Assembly: GCA_019429465.1 (NCBI GenBank)
Contig: JAHYIV010000005.1
Location: 1 to 64,000 of the forward strand
Source: Desulfoarculaceae bacterium
GTDB lineage: Bacteria > Desulfobacterota > Desulfobulbia > Desulfobulbales > Desulfocapsaceae
Reading direction: 5' to 3'
DNA: 64,000 bases
Below the pieces are notes generated by a model. The model did not search any database. It worked only from the letters and a program-made list of their open reading frames with translations, and had not been told where the DNA came from. The position numbers and the translations under genes were made by a program. Shown in pieces: positions 4,526 through 57,824 of this stretch (position 1 is the stretch's first letter; the number at the start of each line of letters is the position of its first letter).

Positions 4526-6833
4526 CAGGAGAGCATTTATCAAGAGCGCAGCTGCCAGCAGCGCCATTGCAACCGCCGCGGCAATATTCCCCGGCATCAG
4601 TTTTGCCGAATGGAAGAAACAGGAAGGCGCCTCCGGCATGATCACCTGGAAAAAAGCACCCTGCCGTTTTTGTGGCACCGGTTGTGGTGTCCTGATCGGT
4701 GTCTCCGGAGATCGCGCGGTAGCCGTGAAAGGTGATCCTAATTGCAGCGTCAACAAGGGCCTGTGCTGCGTAAAGGGGTATCACTCCGTGCAGGCCCTCT
4801 ATGGCAAGGATCGACTCACCAAGGCCAAGGTCAGGCGCAACGGGGAGATGGTTGAAGTGCCGATCAAAGAGGCCCTTGATATCATCGCCGCCAAGATGAA
4901 GGACACCATGGCCAAGCACGGGAAGGATTCTGTCGCCATGTATGGCTCAGGCCAGTGGACCATCCCCGATGGCTATGTTGCCTCCAAACTTTTTAAAGGC
5001 TGTCTCGGCACCAACAATCTTGAGGCCAACGCCAGGCTTTGCATGTCCAGTGCGGTCACCGGTTTCATGACCTCTTTCGGCATTGATGAGCCCATGGGCT
5101 GTTATGAAGACATTGATTACGCCAATGTCTTTGTTACCTGGGGCAACAACATGGCGGAGATGCATCCGGTCCTTTTTTCGAGGATGCTGGCCAACCGCAA
5201 GCGCCGCAACAATGTCGAGATTATCGACTTTGCCACCCGTACCACCAGAACCAGTCAGGCCGCCGACAGATCCATTCTGTTCAGGCCGCAGACCGATCTG
5301 GCCGTGGCCAATGCCATCTGTTATGAAATTATCCACAATAACTGGGTGAACTGGGATTTCCTCAACACCCACGTCTCGTTTCATAAAGGAAAGACCGATA
5401 TCGGCTATGGAACCGAAGATCACTTCGCCTTCACCGATAAAGAGGAGCCTATTAATTTTGAAGAATACAAAAAATTTCTCGAAGATTATACCCCGGAGAA
5501 GGTGGAAAAGATCTCCGGGGTCTCAGCCAGAGACATCAAGTACATGGCCTCGTTGTACGGTGATCCGACCAAAAAGGTGACCTCCTTCTGGTGCATGGGG
5601 ATGAACCAGCACACCCGGGGGACCTGGATCCAGAACCTGGTTTACAATATCCATTTGCTGACCGGCAAGATCTCCACCCCGGGCAACAGCCCATTTTCCC
5701 TTACCGGGCAGCCCAGCGCCTGCGGAACGGTGCGCGAGGTCGGCACCCTGACCCATGCCCTGCCCCACGGCGGAGTCGCCAATGAACATGACCGGGAAAT
5801 GGCGGCCAAAATCTGGGATGTGCCGGTGAGCAACATTGACCCGAAACCGACATATCATACTGTGGAGATGTTTCGGGCCCTGGATCGCGGCGATATCAAA
5901 TTCATGTGGATCCAGGTCACCAATCCCATGGTCACCATGCCGAACCTCAATCGTTACCGCCAAGGGGCCCTGAAGGACGACCGTTTTATCGTGGTCTCCG
6001 AGGTCTACCCGACTCCGACCACCGATGTTGCCGATGTTATTCTGCCTGCCGCCATGTGGGTTGAGCAGGAAGGCATGTTCGGCAACTCCGAACGGCGCAC
6101 CCAGCATTTTGCCCAGATTGTCCCTCCTCCGGGTGAGGCCATGTCCGACACCTGGCAGCTGATCGAAGTTGCCAGAAGGCTGGGTTTTGAAAAGCAGTTT
6201 CCCTGGAGCGAAGAGGAACACATCGGCAAGATCTGGGAAGAGTACCGGCGTTTCCATGAGGGTCCTAAACACAACATGGCCCCATACACGGTTCTCCTCG
6301 AACGCCCGGGGGTCATGTGGCCCTTTGTCGATGGCAAGGAGACCAGGTGGCGCTTCAACCCCAAGCATGATCCAGCCTGTACCAACGGCAAGGATTTTGA
6401 TTTCTACGGCAAAGCAGATAATAAGGCCTGGATCTGGGCCCGTCCCTATGAGCCGGCTGCCGAGTCACCGGACGCCGAGTATAACTTCTGGCTGAATACC
6501 GGTCGCGTCATCGAGCATTTTCATACCGGCTCCATGACCCGGCGGGTCCCCGTCCTCCATCAGGCCATGCCCTCTTCCTATGTTGAGCTGAACCCTGAAG
6601 ATGCGGCGGGTCTTGGCGTCATCAACGGCGAGATGGTCAAGATCATCTCCAGAAGGGGATCGGTCACCATGCCGGCCTCAATCAATGGCCGCGGTGTTCC
6701 GCCCCGGGGCATGGTGTTCGTCCCGTTTTTTGATGAAAGCTACCTGATCAACGAGGTGACGCTGGATGCCTTTTGTCCAATTTCAAAACAGCCTGATTAT
6801 AAAAAATGTGCGGTCCGACTGGAGAAAGCGTGA
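4515..6833 (+). CDS. napA: Periplasmic nitrate reductase catalytic subunit (Mo-bisMGD)
   Basis: TAT signal MKLDRRAFIKSAAAS; CRFCGTGCGVLIG 4Fe-4S motif; NARLCMSSAVTGF catalytic Cys region; EVYPTPTTDVADVILPAAMWVE. Confidence 0.93.
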   Translation: MKLDRRAFIKSAAASSAIATAAAIFPGISFAEWKKQEGASGMITWKKAPCRFCGTGCGVLIGVSGDRAVAVKGDPNCSVNKGLCCVKGYHSVQALYGKDRLTKAKVRRNGEMVEVPIKEALDIIAAKMKDTMAKHGKDSVAMYGSGQWTIPDGYVASKLFKGCLGTNNLEANARLCMSSAVTGFMTSFGIDEPMGCYEDIDYANVFVTWGNNMAEMHPVLFSRMLANRKRRNNVEIIDFATRTTRTSQAADRSILFRPQTDLAVANAICYEIIHNNWVNWDFLNTHVSFHKGKTDIGYGTEDHFAFTDKEEPINFEEYKKFLEDYTPEKVEKISGVSARDIKYMASLYGDPTKKVTSFWCMGMNQHTRGTWIQNLVYNIHLLTGKISTPGNSPFSLTGQPSACGTVREVGTLTHALPHGGVANEHDREMAAKIWDVPVSNIDPKPTYHTVEMFRALDRGDIKFMWIQVTNPMVTMPNLNRYRQGALKDDRFIVVSEVYPTPTTDVADVILPAAMWVEQEGMFGNSERRTQHFAQIVPPPGEAMSDTWQLIEVARRLGFEKQFPWSEEEHIGKIWEEYRRFHEGPKHNMAPYTVLLERPGVMWPFVDGKETRWRFNPKHDPACTNGKDFDFYGKADNKAWIWARPYEPAAESPDAEYNFWLNTGRVIEHFHTGSMTRRVPVLHQAMPSSYVELNPEDAAGLGVINGEMVKIISRRGSVTMPASINGRGVPPRGMVFVPFFDESYLINEVTLDAFCPISKQPDYKKCAVRLEKA

Positions 6834-26957: not shown

Positions 26958-27116
26958 TAAGCCGCTGTAAAAAAAAACATGGCCATCTTAGTGCCCGGAG
27001 CGGCATAAGGAGCCGGTCGCTCCTACGCCGTCCATGGCGCTCGCGACACTGTGCCATCCCTGGCCTGCGTAACGAAATAGATATAAATGGCCATGTTATT
27101 TCGTAACGGCTCCTAA
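26958..27116. repeat. Family C MITE-like repeat, full copy
   Basis: TAAGCCGCTGTAAAAAAAAACATGGCCAT ... ATGGCCATGTTATTTCGTAACGGCTCCTAA, inverted ends. Confidence 0.88.
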
Positions 27117-28990
27117 AATTCAATCCTGAAACTATGCACCCCTTCCTCCACCTGGCTCTGCACCTTGTAGCCGGAATGATTGAATATGGCCTGCATCCGT
27201 TTGTTGTCACGCAGGACTTCGGCGGTAAAACCGCTGATACCGCTGGCCTTGGCAATGGTCATCAGATGGCGGAAGAGAAAACTGCCCAGTCCCTTGTTCT
27301 GCCACTCATCCCGGATCACAAAGGCAACCTCGGCCAGGTTGGTGCGCTCATCGAGATAATAGCGGCCGACCGCGATGATATCATCGCCATGAGCCTCGGG
27401 CAGGGTACCGACAATGGCCACATCCTTGCGGTGATCGACATAGACAAAATCCTGAATCTGCTTCTGGCCGAATCGCTGGTTATGGCTCATGAAACGATAA
27501 TAGAGGGTCTCCTTCGACAGGTCATAGAGCAGATCCCGCATCAGAGGTTCATCGGTGGGATGAATGGGCCGGAAGTTGACCTGGGTGCCACTGTCGAGCA
27601 GAAAACTGGTCTTCATCAGATCCTCGGAGGCAATAACAAATTTCCCCTCCACCTCGGAAAATTCCCGCCGGATATACCTGGCCTCAATGGCCTGCTTCAG
27701 AAGCTGTCCCCGATGATCAGGATGGGCAATGGACACGAGGGCCAGGGTGCGATCCTGGACCGATTTGCCGTGCAGATAGGCCACCCCGTATTCAGTGACC
27801 ACATAATGAACCGTGCCCCGGCTGATCACCACCCCGGAACCGCTGCTGAGCGCGGCCACAATACGTGATTTGCCGTCGCTGGTGGTGGCCGGCATGACGA
27901 TCACGGCCCTGCCGCCGGGCGAGCTGGCCGCCCCGCGATTAAAGTCCACCTGACCTCCGATCCCGGAATAGAAATTCCCGCCCTCGGAATCAGAACAGAC
28001 CTGGCCGGTCAGATCAATCTCAAGCGCCATATTGATCGAGACCATCCGGTTCTGCCTACCAATCACACCAGGATTATTGACATACTCCGTTGGCCGGAAC
28101 GAAAACAGGGGATTGTCATGAACAAAGTCATACAGCCTTTTCGATCCCATGCAGAAGCTGGTGACGATTTTGCCCCGATCCGTGGATTTACTGGCCCCGC
28201 TCACCGCCCCCGACTCTATCAGGTCAATGATATCATCGGTGATCAGTTCGGTGTGGATCCCCAGATCATGCTTGTCGTGCAGGGCAGACATCACGGCCTG
28301 AGGTATCCGGCCGACCCCGGGAACCCGGCCGAGCCCAAACTCCACCGTGGCGCCGTTGGGGACGAGTGCTGCCACCAGCTCGGCAATCCTGGCGCTCACC
28401 GCATGCACCGGTTGCGATTTACGCTCCAGCAGGGGCACGTCGGCCGGGACCAGGATATCAAGATCATAGACATCAATCTGGCTGTCGCCTCGGGTCCAGG
28501 GCATCCGCGGATTGACCTGAGCTATGACCAGCGAGGCGTTTTCCGCAGCAGCCTTGACAATATCAACGGAGACCCCGAGGCTCATCTTGCCCCTGGCATC
28601 AGGCGGAGTCACCTGGATCAGGGCCACATCAAGGGGCAGCTGCCCGGAGTTCAATAAGCCCGGGATGTCCGACATGAGAATGGGGGTATAATCACCCCTG
28701 CCCTCCTGAAACATCTCCCGCACATTATGACCAATAAAAAAAGAATTGACCTTGAAGCAGTCGGCATATTTGAGGTCGGCATAGGGGGCATCGCCTTTGG
28801 TCAGAAGCTGGACGATCTCGACATCGGCCAGATTACCCGCCATCTCGGTCATGGCCTGCACCAGCACGGTCGGTTCACCGCAGCCCGTTCCCAGGAAGAC
28901 CCTATGGCCGGATCTGACAAGGGCCAGGGCCTGCTTGGGGGTCATGATCATATCCTTATATTTCTCTTTCCAGCTGGCATCATATTCCAT
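27113..28990 (-). CDS. Acetyl-CoA hydrolase/transferase fused to GNAT acetyltransferase domain
   Basis: CoA-transferase N-terminal ~430 aa plus C-terminal GNAT (ADVAFVIRDEWQNKGLGSFLFRHL-like). Confidence 0.9.
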   Translation of the reverse strand: MEYDASWKEKYKDMIMTPKQALALVRSGHRVFLGTGCGEPTVLVQAMTEMAGNLADVEIVQLLTKGDAPYADLKYADCFKVNSFFIGHNVREMFQEGRGDYTPILMSDIPGLLNSGQLPLDVALIQVTPPDARGKMSLGVSVDIVKAAAENASLVIAQVNPRMPWTRGDSQIDVYDLDILVPADVPLLERKSQPVHAVSARIAELVAALVPNGATVEFGLGRVPGVGRIPQAVMSALHDKHDLGIHTELITDDIIDLIESGAVSGASKSTDRGKIVTSFCMGSKRLYDFVHDNPLFSFRPTEYVNNPGVIGRQNRMVSINMALEIDLTGQVCSDSEGGNFYSGIGGQVDFNRGAASSPGGRAVIVMPATTSDGKSRIVAALSSGSGVVISRGTVHYVVTEYGVAYLHGKSVQDRTLALVSIAHPDHRGQLLKQAIEARYIRREFSEVEGKFVIASEDLMKTSFLLDSGTQVNFRPIHPTDEPLMRDLLYDLSKETLYYRFMSHNQRFGQKQIQDFVYVDHRKDVAIVGTLPEAHGDDIIAVGRYYLDERTNLAEVAFVIRDEWQNKGLGSFLFRHLMTIAKASGISGFTAEVLRDNKRMQAIFNHSGYKVQSQVEEGVHSFRIEF

Positions 28991-39526: not shown

Positions 39527-39685
39527 TAAGCCGCTGTAAAAAAATAACTGGCCATCTAAGTGCCAGGAGTGGCATAAGGAGCCGGTCGCTACTACGCCGT
39601 CCATGGCGCTCGCGACACTGGGCCATCCCTGGCCTGCGTAACGAAAGAGATATAAATGGCCATGTTATTTCGTAACGGCTCCTAA
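39527..39685. repeat. Family C MITE-like repeat, full copy
   Basis: Same 159-bp sequence as 26958..27116 with few differences. Confidence 0.88.
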
Positions 39686-39757
39686 CATGCGCAACCAGTG
39701 ATCCAGACATCCCTATTGACGCATCCCCGAACTCATCCTCACAGGCGGAAATCTTTC

Positions 39758-49664: not shown

Positions 49665-50045
49665 TTAGGTAGAGTAGGAAGCTGACTTCTCGAGCATGGT
49701 CAGGACTTTTATTTGACGCCTCGCCGCCCGCGGCTACTACGTGTCTACCAACATGTTCGTTCATCAGCTCCCCCTCATCAAACCGTACGTGCGCTATTAA
49801 CGCATACGGCTTTCCGATGTTCTTCACGCCAAGGCATGCGCCGAGCACCAGCCCGCCTTCACAGGAACCTTATACAACCCATAACGCCCGTAGAGCTCGG
49901 TCCTCGGGAAACGGTGCCGACCGGCTCCCCTACTCTTAACCTTGTGGCGCTTCATCAAGTGGATTCGCAACCGTTCTTCCGCATGGTTCCTGACCTTGAC
50001 CATAATCAGACTTGAATTCCGACAGTGAAAGTAGTTCACCCAGCC
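49665..50045 (-). mobile_element. 3'-terminal remnant of a group II intron (maturase C-terminus plus 3' RNA domains)
   Basis: Colinear with 53990-54370; MNYFHCRNSSLIMVKVRNHAEERLRIHLMKRHKVK...YGRYGLYKVPVKAGWCSAHALA and TCCTACTCTACC 3' end. Confidence 0.85.
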
Positions 50046-51071: not shown

Positions 51072-51326
51072 AAATTTGATAGTCTTGCAAAAAGTCTAAA
51101 ATGTCAAATATCGCATTTGTAACCTGCTGAAATTACGAGGGCGAAATTTGGGAAAAGGCCTGTTTTGGGACTTTTTGCGAGACCATCAAATTTACATGCA
51201 ATGTGATGATGAGCAAATATAGCCGGTTATATGGCTATATGAAAAAGCATGTTTCTGCCCCTTGTCTTCCCGGCCCCTGTGCGCTATTCTATACTGTATA
51301 CGTAATACGTAAGAAATGGAGGCATT

Positions 51327-53987: not shown

Positions 53988-55990
53988 GGGTAGAGTAGGA
54001 AACTGATTTGCCAGTCAGCGCACAGGACTTTTATTTGACGCCTCGCCGCCCGCAGCTACTACGTGTCAACTGGCCTAATCGTCCATCAGCCTCCCCTCAT
54101 CAAACCGGACGTGCAGTTTTCCCGCATCCGGCTTTCCGATGTCCTTCACACCAAGGCATGCGCCGTGCGCCAGCCCGCAACTGTAGGAACCTTGTATAAC
54201 CCGTAACAATCATAAAGATCGCGACTTGGAAAACGACGTAAGCCGGTTCCTCTGTCCTTCACCTTATGACGCTTCATCATGTGAGTACGTAACCGGTCTT
54301 CCGCATGTGTCTTGACCTTGCCCATTACCTCACTTGAATTACGATAGTGGAAATAGTTCACCCAGCCTCGCAGGCTCCGGTTCACGTTGCCAACAATGTT
54401 TTCCAAGGGGATGGGGGTCAAGTTCCTCCCCGTCAATTTCTTCAGTTTCGCCTTGATCTTCATAAGCGATTTATCGGCAGGTCGGACACTTGGATATTGC
54501 TTTCCAGTTTTCATACCTTGACTCATCTGAATCGTAAAACCCAGGAAATTAAATCCGGTTTGGGTGGCATCCACTATATGGGTCTTGGTCTCGTTGAGGC
54601 TGAGGCCCAGTCGTTCCAATACATGACGCACCACCTTCAGCGGTTCCTCTACATCTTTTCGACACATGACTACAAAATCATCGGCATACCGCACGAGATG
54701 CGCTTGCAGTTTGCCTTTCAAGTGCCGCCTTTGCCATATCCGGTCAAGAATATGCAAGTAGCAGTTGGCCAACAGCGGGGAAATCACACCACCTTGCGGC
54801 GTCCCTTTACGATTGGACTTGCCGCCACCCACGGTCTTCTTCACACCGTTTTCGTCTTCACCAATGATCGGGGCTTTGAGCCATTGCTTAATGAGATGTA
54901 ATATCCCCCCATCGACAATACGCTCGGCCACCACAGCCATCAGCTTGGCGTGCGGGATGCTGTCAAAGTATTTCGACAGGTCCGCATCAATGACTTGGGT
55001 ATAGCCTGCCCATAGTGTATTGGCAATGTCATCCACTGCATCGTGTGCCGATCTCTTGGGCCGGAATCCGTACGAGTGCGGACAGAAATCAGCTTCAAAA
55101 ATCGGTTCGATGATGAGCTTCACCGCCATTTGTGCTACCCGGTCTCGGATAGTCGGAATCCCCAACGGTCGCAAACTGCCATCCGCTTTAGGAATCATGA
55201 CGCGCCGCACCGGTTGGGCTCGGTAGGTCTTCTCTTTCAGATCACGGGCCAGTTCCTGCAAAAACGTTTCTACCCCTATTCCGTCCTCTATGGCCTCGAA
55301 GCTGAGTCCATCAACACCCGGACCACCTCGGTTGGCACGAACAAGTCGCCAGGCATGACTGAGTATGTCTCCCCGGCTGATCTTGTCGTAGAGCGCGTAA
55401 AAGCGATAGGCCGGTTCTAGCTTGGCCTTGGCATACAGCTTCCTCTGTAGCGTCCTGATTCTGTCTGGGGTGGTTAGCGACATGGCAATCCCCTGATCCT
55501 CCGCTCTTTGGTTGCATGAACAAAGCAGGGTCCCTTCCCTCGTCCGGGGTTATGTTGTCCCACGAACTCTAACGGTACTATGAACCCCTCCGACTCCCGC
55601 TTCGGGACGATGCGCTTTCGTTTCCTTATACGCACCGATCGGTGGCCTCCCCACCTCCAGAAACGGGTCTCCAGCACTGGGCAATAAATCTTCGAAAACA
55701 TGCCAACCTTGCTACCCCGGGAGTCGATAGATGCCACTTCCGTTATTCCAGCACCCATCCAACGGCCTTCCCCTTCTGACCACAGGGTCGGCTTCTCCAA
55801 ATCAATTTACGAGGCTACTTGTGGGTTCACTTACGTTTCGGCCTGCTTTCTTGCTGTTTGGAAACTCACGACCCCGTGTTACCACGACGCCGCTTCCTCA
55901 TACTACCGGGGCGTACGGACAACTCCCCAGACGGGACTTCAACCCGCTAGATTTACTGCTGTTACTGCGAACGGTCAGGTCTTGCAATCC
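53988..55990 (-). mobile_element. Group II intron (approximate 5' boundary)
   Basis: LtrA-type ORF with 3' GAGCCGGATGCGGGAAAACTGCACGTCCGGTTTGATGAGGGG and TCCTACTCTACCC terminus on the minus strand. Confidence 0.8.
54146..55483 (-). CDS. ltrA: Group II intron reverse transcriptase/maturase
   Basis: [30 protein letters not shown]-terminal maturase/GIIM-like segment. Confidence 0.96.
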
Positions 55991-56085
55991 AATAAATTGA
56001 CCAGTTAATACGTGCAAATGTCAGGCTTGACTTCAGACCTCGTAAACAACGAGGGAAGATAGGGACACTCCCGAATGGCGCTAGT

Positions 56086-57740
56086 TTAAGGGTTTGTAGC
56101 GCGATATGCGCTCCGATGCGGAGTCTCTCTCATTTCATGTCTCGGCGAGTTCATTAAATCATAATTTTTTCGTCGTCGCTTAAGGCATCGAGGTTCTTTT
56201 CGCCCTGGGCGTTGCCTGATCGGAGTGTTGGTCATCGCGTCATACAAATCACTGATCATTCTGAACCGCTTTATCCGGCTGATCTTCGTCTGATTTAGAT
56301 GTGGCTCCCAGCTGCGGAGGGCCTGCACACTGCCCTTAAAGCTTACTACTCGAACCTCAAGACCCGCTTCCTCTGCCGCCTCGTACATCAACCGCCGGAT
56401 ACAGTTATAGGCAATGAAATTCATTAAGATTGATGGCGTCGTAAAAAGTCGCCAACTGCTTCGTTGCTGCAAATTATCTCGTCACTGCGGCGTACTCAAG
56501 TACGCCTCATTCCTCGAAATTTGCGCGCCTCGCATTTGACGCTTTTTACTTAGCCATCCCAGAAATTGAGTTTTTACGAAACCATCAAGATTTCTTTGCG
56601 AATCATCTCTGGTGTTCGGCAGCGCAAGATATCCAGGCCCATAGTCGTCTTGATGTCGCGGAAAAACAGCTCGACATCCCCCCGCTTTAAGTAAAGATCG
56701 GCAATTTGCTCAGCAGGATATTGCTTGGCATCGAGCAGGGTGGTAACGATGTGACACCCCTGTGTCCTAAATCCAGGATGTGTCACCGTGACCTTGATTT
56801 GTCTCAAAACCAGCTCTTTCGGCAGCTCCTCCCATGCGTCTTTCGAATACGACAGAATGGTGTTATAGACGGGGCGTTCCCATTTTATCAGCAGATCGTT
56901 ATTCCCGAGTTTTTTGAGGCTGCCAGCTGAGCTGACCGGCGTTCTTCCGGCAAGGGTAACAACGCTATCAACACCTTGCTTTTCCAGGTTTGCGATGTCG
57001 AAATAACTACAGAACCCTTTGTCTCCCAGAAAGATGTCACCCTGCCTGAACATCTTCCACTGTTTACGGAACAACGGCAGCTCATGATTTTTCTTATTAC
57101 CGATGGCGTAACTGAGTAAAGCCCCACTTTCCAGAGAAAAACAGGCGCAGATACGAGCCGTCGGGAATCCGCATCCCGGCTTCTGGGAGGCCAACTGTGG
57201 CCAAACCTCCTGGTTCTCCGGGGTATCCGGCATGCTGACTCCTGTCCCTTCAACAACAATAACCCGCCGGTTATTCAGCAATCCGGCCACCGGTATTTTA
57301 TCAAGCCGATCTGCCGTGTGTTCAAAAATCTCAAAGAGCATCTGTTCATCTAACTTCTTACGAGCCGTGCAGTATGAAGCGGTCGAAGATGAAGGAACTT
57401 TGATTCCCTTGACGGAGGCATAGGACTGAAGCTTGCGGATCACTTCCTTGCAGCCTCCGTCCGCATCCAGCACCTAACTGAAAAAGGCCCAAAAGGTATT
57501 CTCTTTGGAGAAAATCCTTCGGCGACTCATGGCCCCGTCCCGCTCCTGCTTGAGAAGTGTGCGAGGAATAAACCTTTCAAAGACCTCGCCGATCTGTTTG
57601 AAAGATTTTTGCCTCAACAGAGCTATTTTTTCGGCAAGTTTCTGCTGGGCTGAACGTGGTTTACGACGCAAGGTACGCGACTGAAACCCTGGAAGCATTG
57701 GCATTGTTTTTATTATATTTTGCATTGGTAAATATACCAA
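56086..57740 (-). pseudogene. IS4-family transposase interrupted by an amber codon and a MITE
   Basis: Three colinear pieces: ...FWAFFS(TAG)VLDADGGCKEV...; YLKRGDVELFFRDIKTTMGLDILRCRTPEMIRKEIL [MITE] MNFIAYNCIRRLMYEAAEEAG. Confidence 0.9.
56431..56586 (-). mobile_element. 156-bp MITE (family A), copy 3, inserted in the IS4 transposase
   Basis: Reverse complement of 31294..31449; flanked by AAGAT direct repeats; removal restores the ORF. Confidence 0.92.
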
Positions 57741-57824
57741 TTTTAGCCAATGTTTTCAGCTTGTTTCTCCTAGAAAAAAACCTTAAACTAGTGCCATTCG
57801 GGAGTGTCCCTAATTTCCCAAACA

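Follow-up and report, generated by a model that had tools for sequence, protein, structure and literature searches.

MITEs of ISMac2, an IS1182-family element, are known from Methanosarcina acetivorans, where they measure 160 and 169 bp and occur in 7-14 copies (PMC3852290). In the same family, ISPse1 makes 4-bp repeats (PMC3281130), and IS1272 takes the place of stem-loops and leaves no duplication (PMC5678879). The MITE Chunjie of Geobacter uraniireducens, 235 bp long and inserted in and near genes, is described in a review (PMC10969869). Multicopy intergenic elements of Geobacter metallireducens with the central palindrome GRCGTAGCGCTGCTACGCC were predicted as short RNA elements and are said to occur in Desulfotalea too (PMC2700814). 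A literature search found no paper linking the repeat described here to an IS in Desulfobacterota. The repeat lies in the window, the whole 64,000-nucleotide stretch of DNA that was analyzed, where it interrupts an IS4-family transposase gene, and it is very probably a non-autonomous MITE that depends for its movement on the trans-acting transposase of an IS1182-related IS, as judged from sequence comparison.

Limits and parts of the repeat

A sequence-only reading had located a mobile repeat at 56426-56592, and this interval reads exactly as AAGATT, 155 bp and AAGATT. Its proposal of a mobile unit with a target duplication stands, and the sizes it gave, 156 bp with a 5-bp duplication, are corrected to 155 bp and 6 bp. 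The plus-strand reading of the element starts GATGGCGTCGTAAAAAGTCG and finishes GAGTTTTTACGAAACCATC, so that the ends are symmetric (GATGG...CCATC) with AAGATT on either side. In a single copy the boundary looks ambiguous, since CCATC is usually followed by an A that also opens the duplication. Considering 38 copies together, including those with the duplications AAGTAA and TTATTT, fixes the element at 155 (or 179) bp and the duplication at 6 bp. Terminal inverted repeats of the form GATGG(TTT/CGT)CGTAAAAA are present at both ends in inverted orientation. No ORF of at least 60 aa is contained within this short element, and the only ORFs are those entering from the flanks; the element is transposase-less. 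By chance, 0.07 end matches would be expected in the window; 8 are present. The copy at 31294-31448 has the same length, again 155 bp, and the ACCTT duplications read there earlier belong to 6-bp flanks that agree at 5/6 positions (Table 1).

Table 1. Positions of the MITE, its copies and the interrupted gene in the window
Feature	Position	Strand	Details
Left target duplication	56426-56431		AAGATT, 6 bp
MITE	56432-56586	minus	155 bp; GATGGTTTCGTAAAAA…TTTTTACGACGCCATC
Outer left end of MITE	56571-56586	minus	GATGGTTTCGTAAAAA
Right end of MITE	56432-56447	minus	
Internal end-like motif	56543-56558	minus	GATGGCTAAGTAAAAA; third such motif in the MITE
Hairpin core	56432-56558		127 bp; closed by the internal motif and the right end
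Right target duplication	56587-56592		AAGATT, 6 bp
Second MITE copy	31294-31448	plus	Letter-for-letter the same as the 56432-56586 copy over 155 bp
Flanks of second copy	31288-31293, 31449-31454		GACCTT and AACCTT; 5/6 positions match
Third MITE copy, partial	1-121	plus	Family sequence in two blocks, 1-62 and 82-121; truncated at the contig start
IS4 transposase ORF, 5' part	56574-57473	minus	Extends a few codons into the MITE
IS4 transposase frame, 3' part	56086-56425	minus	Runs on from the 5' part when the element and one duplication are taken out
Different MITE	51078-51187	minus	110 bp; ends GATGGTCTCGCAAAAA / GATAGTCTTGCAAAAA
Duplication of 110-bp MITE	51072-51077, 51188-51193		AAATTT, 6 bp, perfect

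Copies and target preference in the host genome

The host assembly comprises 2.84 Mb in 72 contigs, is 94.8% complete, and has many contigs that end in repeats. A search of this genome with the 155-bp query returned 40 scored matches, and a 179-bp class, which has an extra 24 bp in the interior, comes in addition; near-identical copies of these two sizes number in the dozens. The host genome has 108 occurrences of the end motif TGATGGnnnCGTAAAAA, nearly all of them in inverted pairs that span ~157 or 181 bp, and 0 of the reversed control. Perfect duplications of at least 6 bp flank 34 of the 38 copies for which both flanks were read; three others match at 5/6 positions and one, L021, has no duplication. 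Apparent duplications of 7-11 bp arise where the target itself is repetitive. The target is mostly AANNTT, with 28/34 duplications starting AA and 31/34 finishing TT. The sequence-only reading had held that copies and flank duplications should be sought throughout the genome and that other copies lacking them would count against mobility; the copies exist and the duplications are there. Among the 155-bp copies listed, 10/23 are identical in sequence, and the amplification is therefore taken to be recent. On the evidence of its copies, the repeat is a recently amplified MITE. On contig C48 of G000 (L097), 155-bp copies at 2494-2648 and 4569-4723 lie in opposite orientation on the two sides of a dnaA-like ORF.

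The 110-bp MITE in the window (Table 1) has the same kind of ends as the 155-bp MITE and an unrelated interior. Because it combines these ends with a 6-bp duplication, more than one MITE family seems to draw on a single transposase group. A MITE with the same ends also occurs at L202 (2066-2198); its interior palindrome, CGTCATnCCGG...CCGGAATGACG, resembles a widespread bacterial repeat, which MITEs of this kind may carry as cargo in this group. Two further repeats are present in the window. One is a different 156-bp repeat (34038-34193 and 35925-36080; ends GTAACTATCC / GGATAGTTAC), whose two copies are 99% identical, inverted and flank an apparent 2-isopropylmalate synthase gene. The other is a dispersed family of ~160 bp with ends ...TTATTTCGTAACGGCTCC at 2049-2139, 26958-27119 and 39527-39688, a member of which directly adjoins the MITE copy L017.

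IS1182-related elements with matching ends

The sequence-only reading predicted an IS with GATGGTTTCGTAAAAA-like ends that would encode the transposase. Such ISs are found in relatives, where they are IS1182-related and have the same duplication, and not in the host assembly. They measure ~1.87-1.96 kb, have the ends GATGGnnTCGTAAAAA and are flanked by a 6-bp AANNTT-like duplication. The element of Desulfobulbaceae bacterium UBA2276 (L125:405-2296) is 1892 bp long with GATGGTCTCGTAAAAA at both ends, lies between perfect 6-bp duplications (ACTCAT) and encodes a 580-aa transposase. The partner transposase scores above cut-off for DUF772 (PF05598), DDE_Tnp_1_6 (PF13751) and DDE_Tnp_1 (PF01609). 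IS1182 is its best match of all NCBIfam families, with an E-value of 4e-47 over nearly the whole length. The scores against the IS1182 profile NF033551, 161.3 and 159.8 bits, fall below the curated cut-off of 270, and the partner is therefore called IS1182-related and not a family member.

Relatives were sought by alignment of three IS1182-related transposases. This search returned 59 loci in public genome contigs, mainly from Desulfobulbaceae, Desulfocapsa, Desulfofustis, Desulfosarcina and other Desulfobacterales, and relatives occur in 35/258 genomes of the order. Perfect 6-8-bp duplications flank 25 of 42 distinct IS copies with two ends; 23 of these 25 start with A and finish with T, and 21 start AA. 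The MITE and the partner ISs have their ends, boundary, duplication length and target preference in common, and the ISs at L236 and L193 have 18-20 bp exactly in common with the MITE right end. IS and MITE stand in tandem in two relatives, as IS-AATTTT-MITE-AATTTT at L175 and IS-AACCTT-MITE-AACCTT at L202, each with the same 6 bp also before the IS. This side-by-side arrangement is consistent with one transposase having used a single target more than once. Nothing beyond the ends is common to the interiors of the MITE and the ISs, which indicates that the MITE did not arise by simple internal deletion from any IS seen.

No IS1182-related transposase was detected in the host assembly (~95% complete, 72 contigs), and relaxed end searches found no IS-sized end pair there. 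We therefore infer transposition in trans, in which an IS1182-related transposase would act on the MITE; in the host lineage its source would be an IS since lost or missing from the assembly. The host assembly without such a gene, together with the unrelated interior, would also suit a real MITE moved by some other transposase family with similar ends and a 6-bp stagger. This is improbable, since one transposase lineage, present in several genera, agrees with the MITE in its ends, boundary, duplication length and preference for AANNTT, MITEs adjoin ISs of that lineage with a common duplication, and no different transposase with such ends was seen. Weak similarity to an ISNCY/ISDol1-type partner (NF033593) led to the right locus, where the transposase is closest to IS1182. 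Fragmentary MITE matches in G048 and G007 and a stray end at C4:21880 were considered as IS ends and are relics or partial copies with no IS; the candidate at C16:151689 looked like chance sequence.

Hairpin core and internal end

The whole element folds as a strong hairpin (DNA folding z-score -5.7), and its internal motif sits 28 bp inside the outer left end. In an alignment of 17 diverged cores, 96.2% of cells pair. Compensatory changes are seen at 8 pairs that change on both sides (32 cells), a level reached in 0/500 shuffles and far above the slid controls, with much of the contrast falling between two lineages and so representing few independent events. No duplication abuts the internal motif in any copy examined, including the copies of relatives, and the outer motif is the boundary. 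Movement of the inner 127-bp hairpin alone was rejected because its inner end adjoins a duplication in no copy.

The core was found in 124/395 genomes and 77/245 genera sampled across the phylum. Where checked, at L317 and L320, the copies have the same layout and 6-bp duplications; among other genera and families, matching duplications were found in 13/38 distinct copies, mostly older ones. At L329 (contig C2 of G405), a hairpin homologous to the MITE core and carrying the Geobacter-type palindrome lies between different outer ends, AACGGCTTCG...CGAAGCCGTT, which suggests that the core can travel with other ends. L329 was one of 14 loci tested. The MITE arms had no match above shuffles in the thirteen other sampled elements with the GRCGTAGCGCTGCTACGCC palindrome, and the idea that the MITE belongs to the 'short RNA' elements of Geobacter metallireducens, with 1/14 loci in its favor, was set aside.

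The compensatory changes, the phylum-wide core matches and the homologous core with other ends at L329 are the reasons for a tentative reading, more doubtful than likely, that the core is an old module under selection for its folded shape across Desulfobacterota, which travels with different transposon ends and whose internal end would take part in its maintenance or regulation. The strong hairpin with its compensatory changes, and the conserved multicopy palindromes of Geobacter metallireducens annotated as predicted short RNAs (PMC2700814), could also point to a REP/BIME-like palindrome or a regulatory RNA element that spread otherwise, with incidental duplications. As an account of mobility this is already contradicted by the precise 6-bp duplications at most copies, a feature foreign to the spread of REP/BIME palindromes, by insertion within coding sequence where orthologous sites are empty and by the same ends on IS elements, and Rfam gives no RNA family at the element; its probability is very low.

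Interrupted IS4-family transposase gene

The ORF interrupted by the MITE scores 160.7 bits against the IS4 profile NF033592 (cut-off 115), placing it in the IS4 family. Joining the flanks without the element and one duplication gives a single open frame of 408 codons through R-K-E-I-L-M-N-F-I-A-Y-N, and the claim that deletion restores the frame exactly is confirmed. The sequence-only reading correctly recognized an insertion into a transposase gene, but the gene was not otherwise intact. A further in-frame stop is present upstream, between the ORFs 57474-57740 and 56574-57473, which adjoin in a single frame. The genus-mate G009 reads on at this position, and the window copy is therefore broken twice.

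G009 and a second genus-mate, G008, carry the same IS4 gene with the MITE site uninterrupted and ~88-90% identical DNA upstream. The G009 gene is ~90% identical upstream of the site and 82% downstream and has a 502-codon open frame across it. A view of the 155-bp segment as something that the IS4 lineage has carried from its ancestor, an origin that had been named as what would refute an insertion, has its position inside the gene and nothing else in its favor and virtually no chance of being correct, since the identical sequence stands at dozens of unrelated sites and the genus-mates carry the gene without the segment.

Inverted repeats of 43 nt (56053-56095 and 57777-57819, 91% complementary) look like the ends of the MITE-invaded IS4-family element. 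A group II intron adjoins this element on the minus strand (53990-55940; RT ORF 54146-55483), with Rfam group II matches at both ends, and the 3' end of a second intron lies at about 49669-49814.

Discussion

Sequence directly shows the limits of the MITE, its duplications and multiple copies, the uninterrupted site in genus-mates, and autonomous ISs whose ends and duplications match. In the mechanism proposed for this MITE, an IS1182-related transposase would recognize the two inverted ends (GATGGnnTCGTAAAAA) and, by 6-bp staggered cuts, place the element in palindromic A+T-rich targets close to AANNTT, and host repair would leave the 6-bp duplication. The insertion is one of two lesions in the IS4 transposase gene, the other being the in-frame stop.

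The finding is well supported, and its usefulness is increased by the likely autonomous family now identified and by the spread across the phylum. What was an anonymous repeat can now be placed among the named kinds of mobile element, with an enzyme open to test, and this accounts for a multicopy hairpin in about a third of the sampled Desulfobacterota genomes. This should aid annotation because conserved palindromes of such a sort have been taken for regulatory RNAs in related bacteria. It also defines an IS1182-related group whose 6-bp target is clear and AANNTT-like, in contrast to IS1272, which replaces stem-loops.

The partner IS resembles the IS1182 family (NF033551; ISPse1, IS1272) in its profile match and its DUF772 and DDE_Tnp_1_6 domains, but has 6-bp duplications where ISPse1 has 4 bp (PMC3281130) and IS1272 none (PMC5678879). 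Chunjie is likewise a MITE of related sulfur- or metal-reducers, inserted in and near genes, and at 235 bp it differs in length. The Geobacter metallireducens elements and the MITE have a similar central GGCGTA...TACGCC stem (PMC2700814). The closest parallel is with the ISMac2 MITEs, which are likewise non-autonomous, tied to an IS1182-family IS and share their ends with it, but belong to an archaeal host and are reported with 25-26-bp inverted repeats and with direct repeats of either 4 bp or 0 bp (PMC3852290). The present MITE differs in its 6-bp duplication, different ends, conserved hairpin core and internal third end. MITEs of IS1182 elements are thus already known from Methanosarcina (PMC3852290), and what sets the one described here apart is how widely it has spread and its additional internal end.
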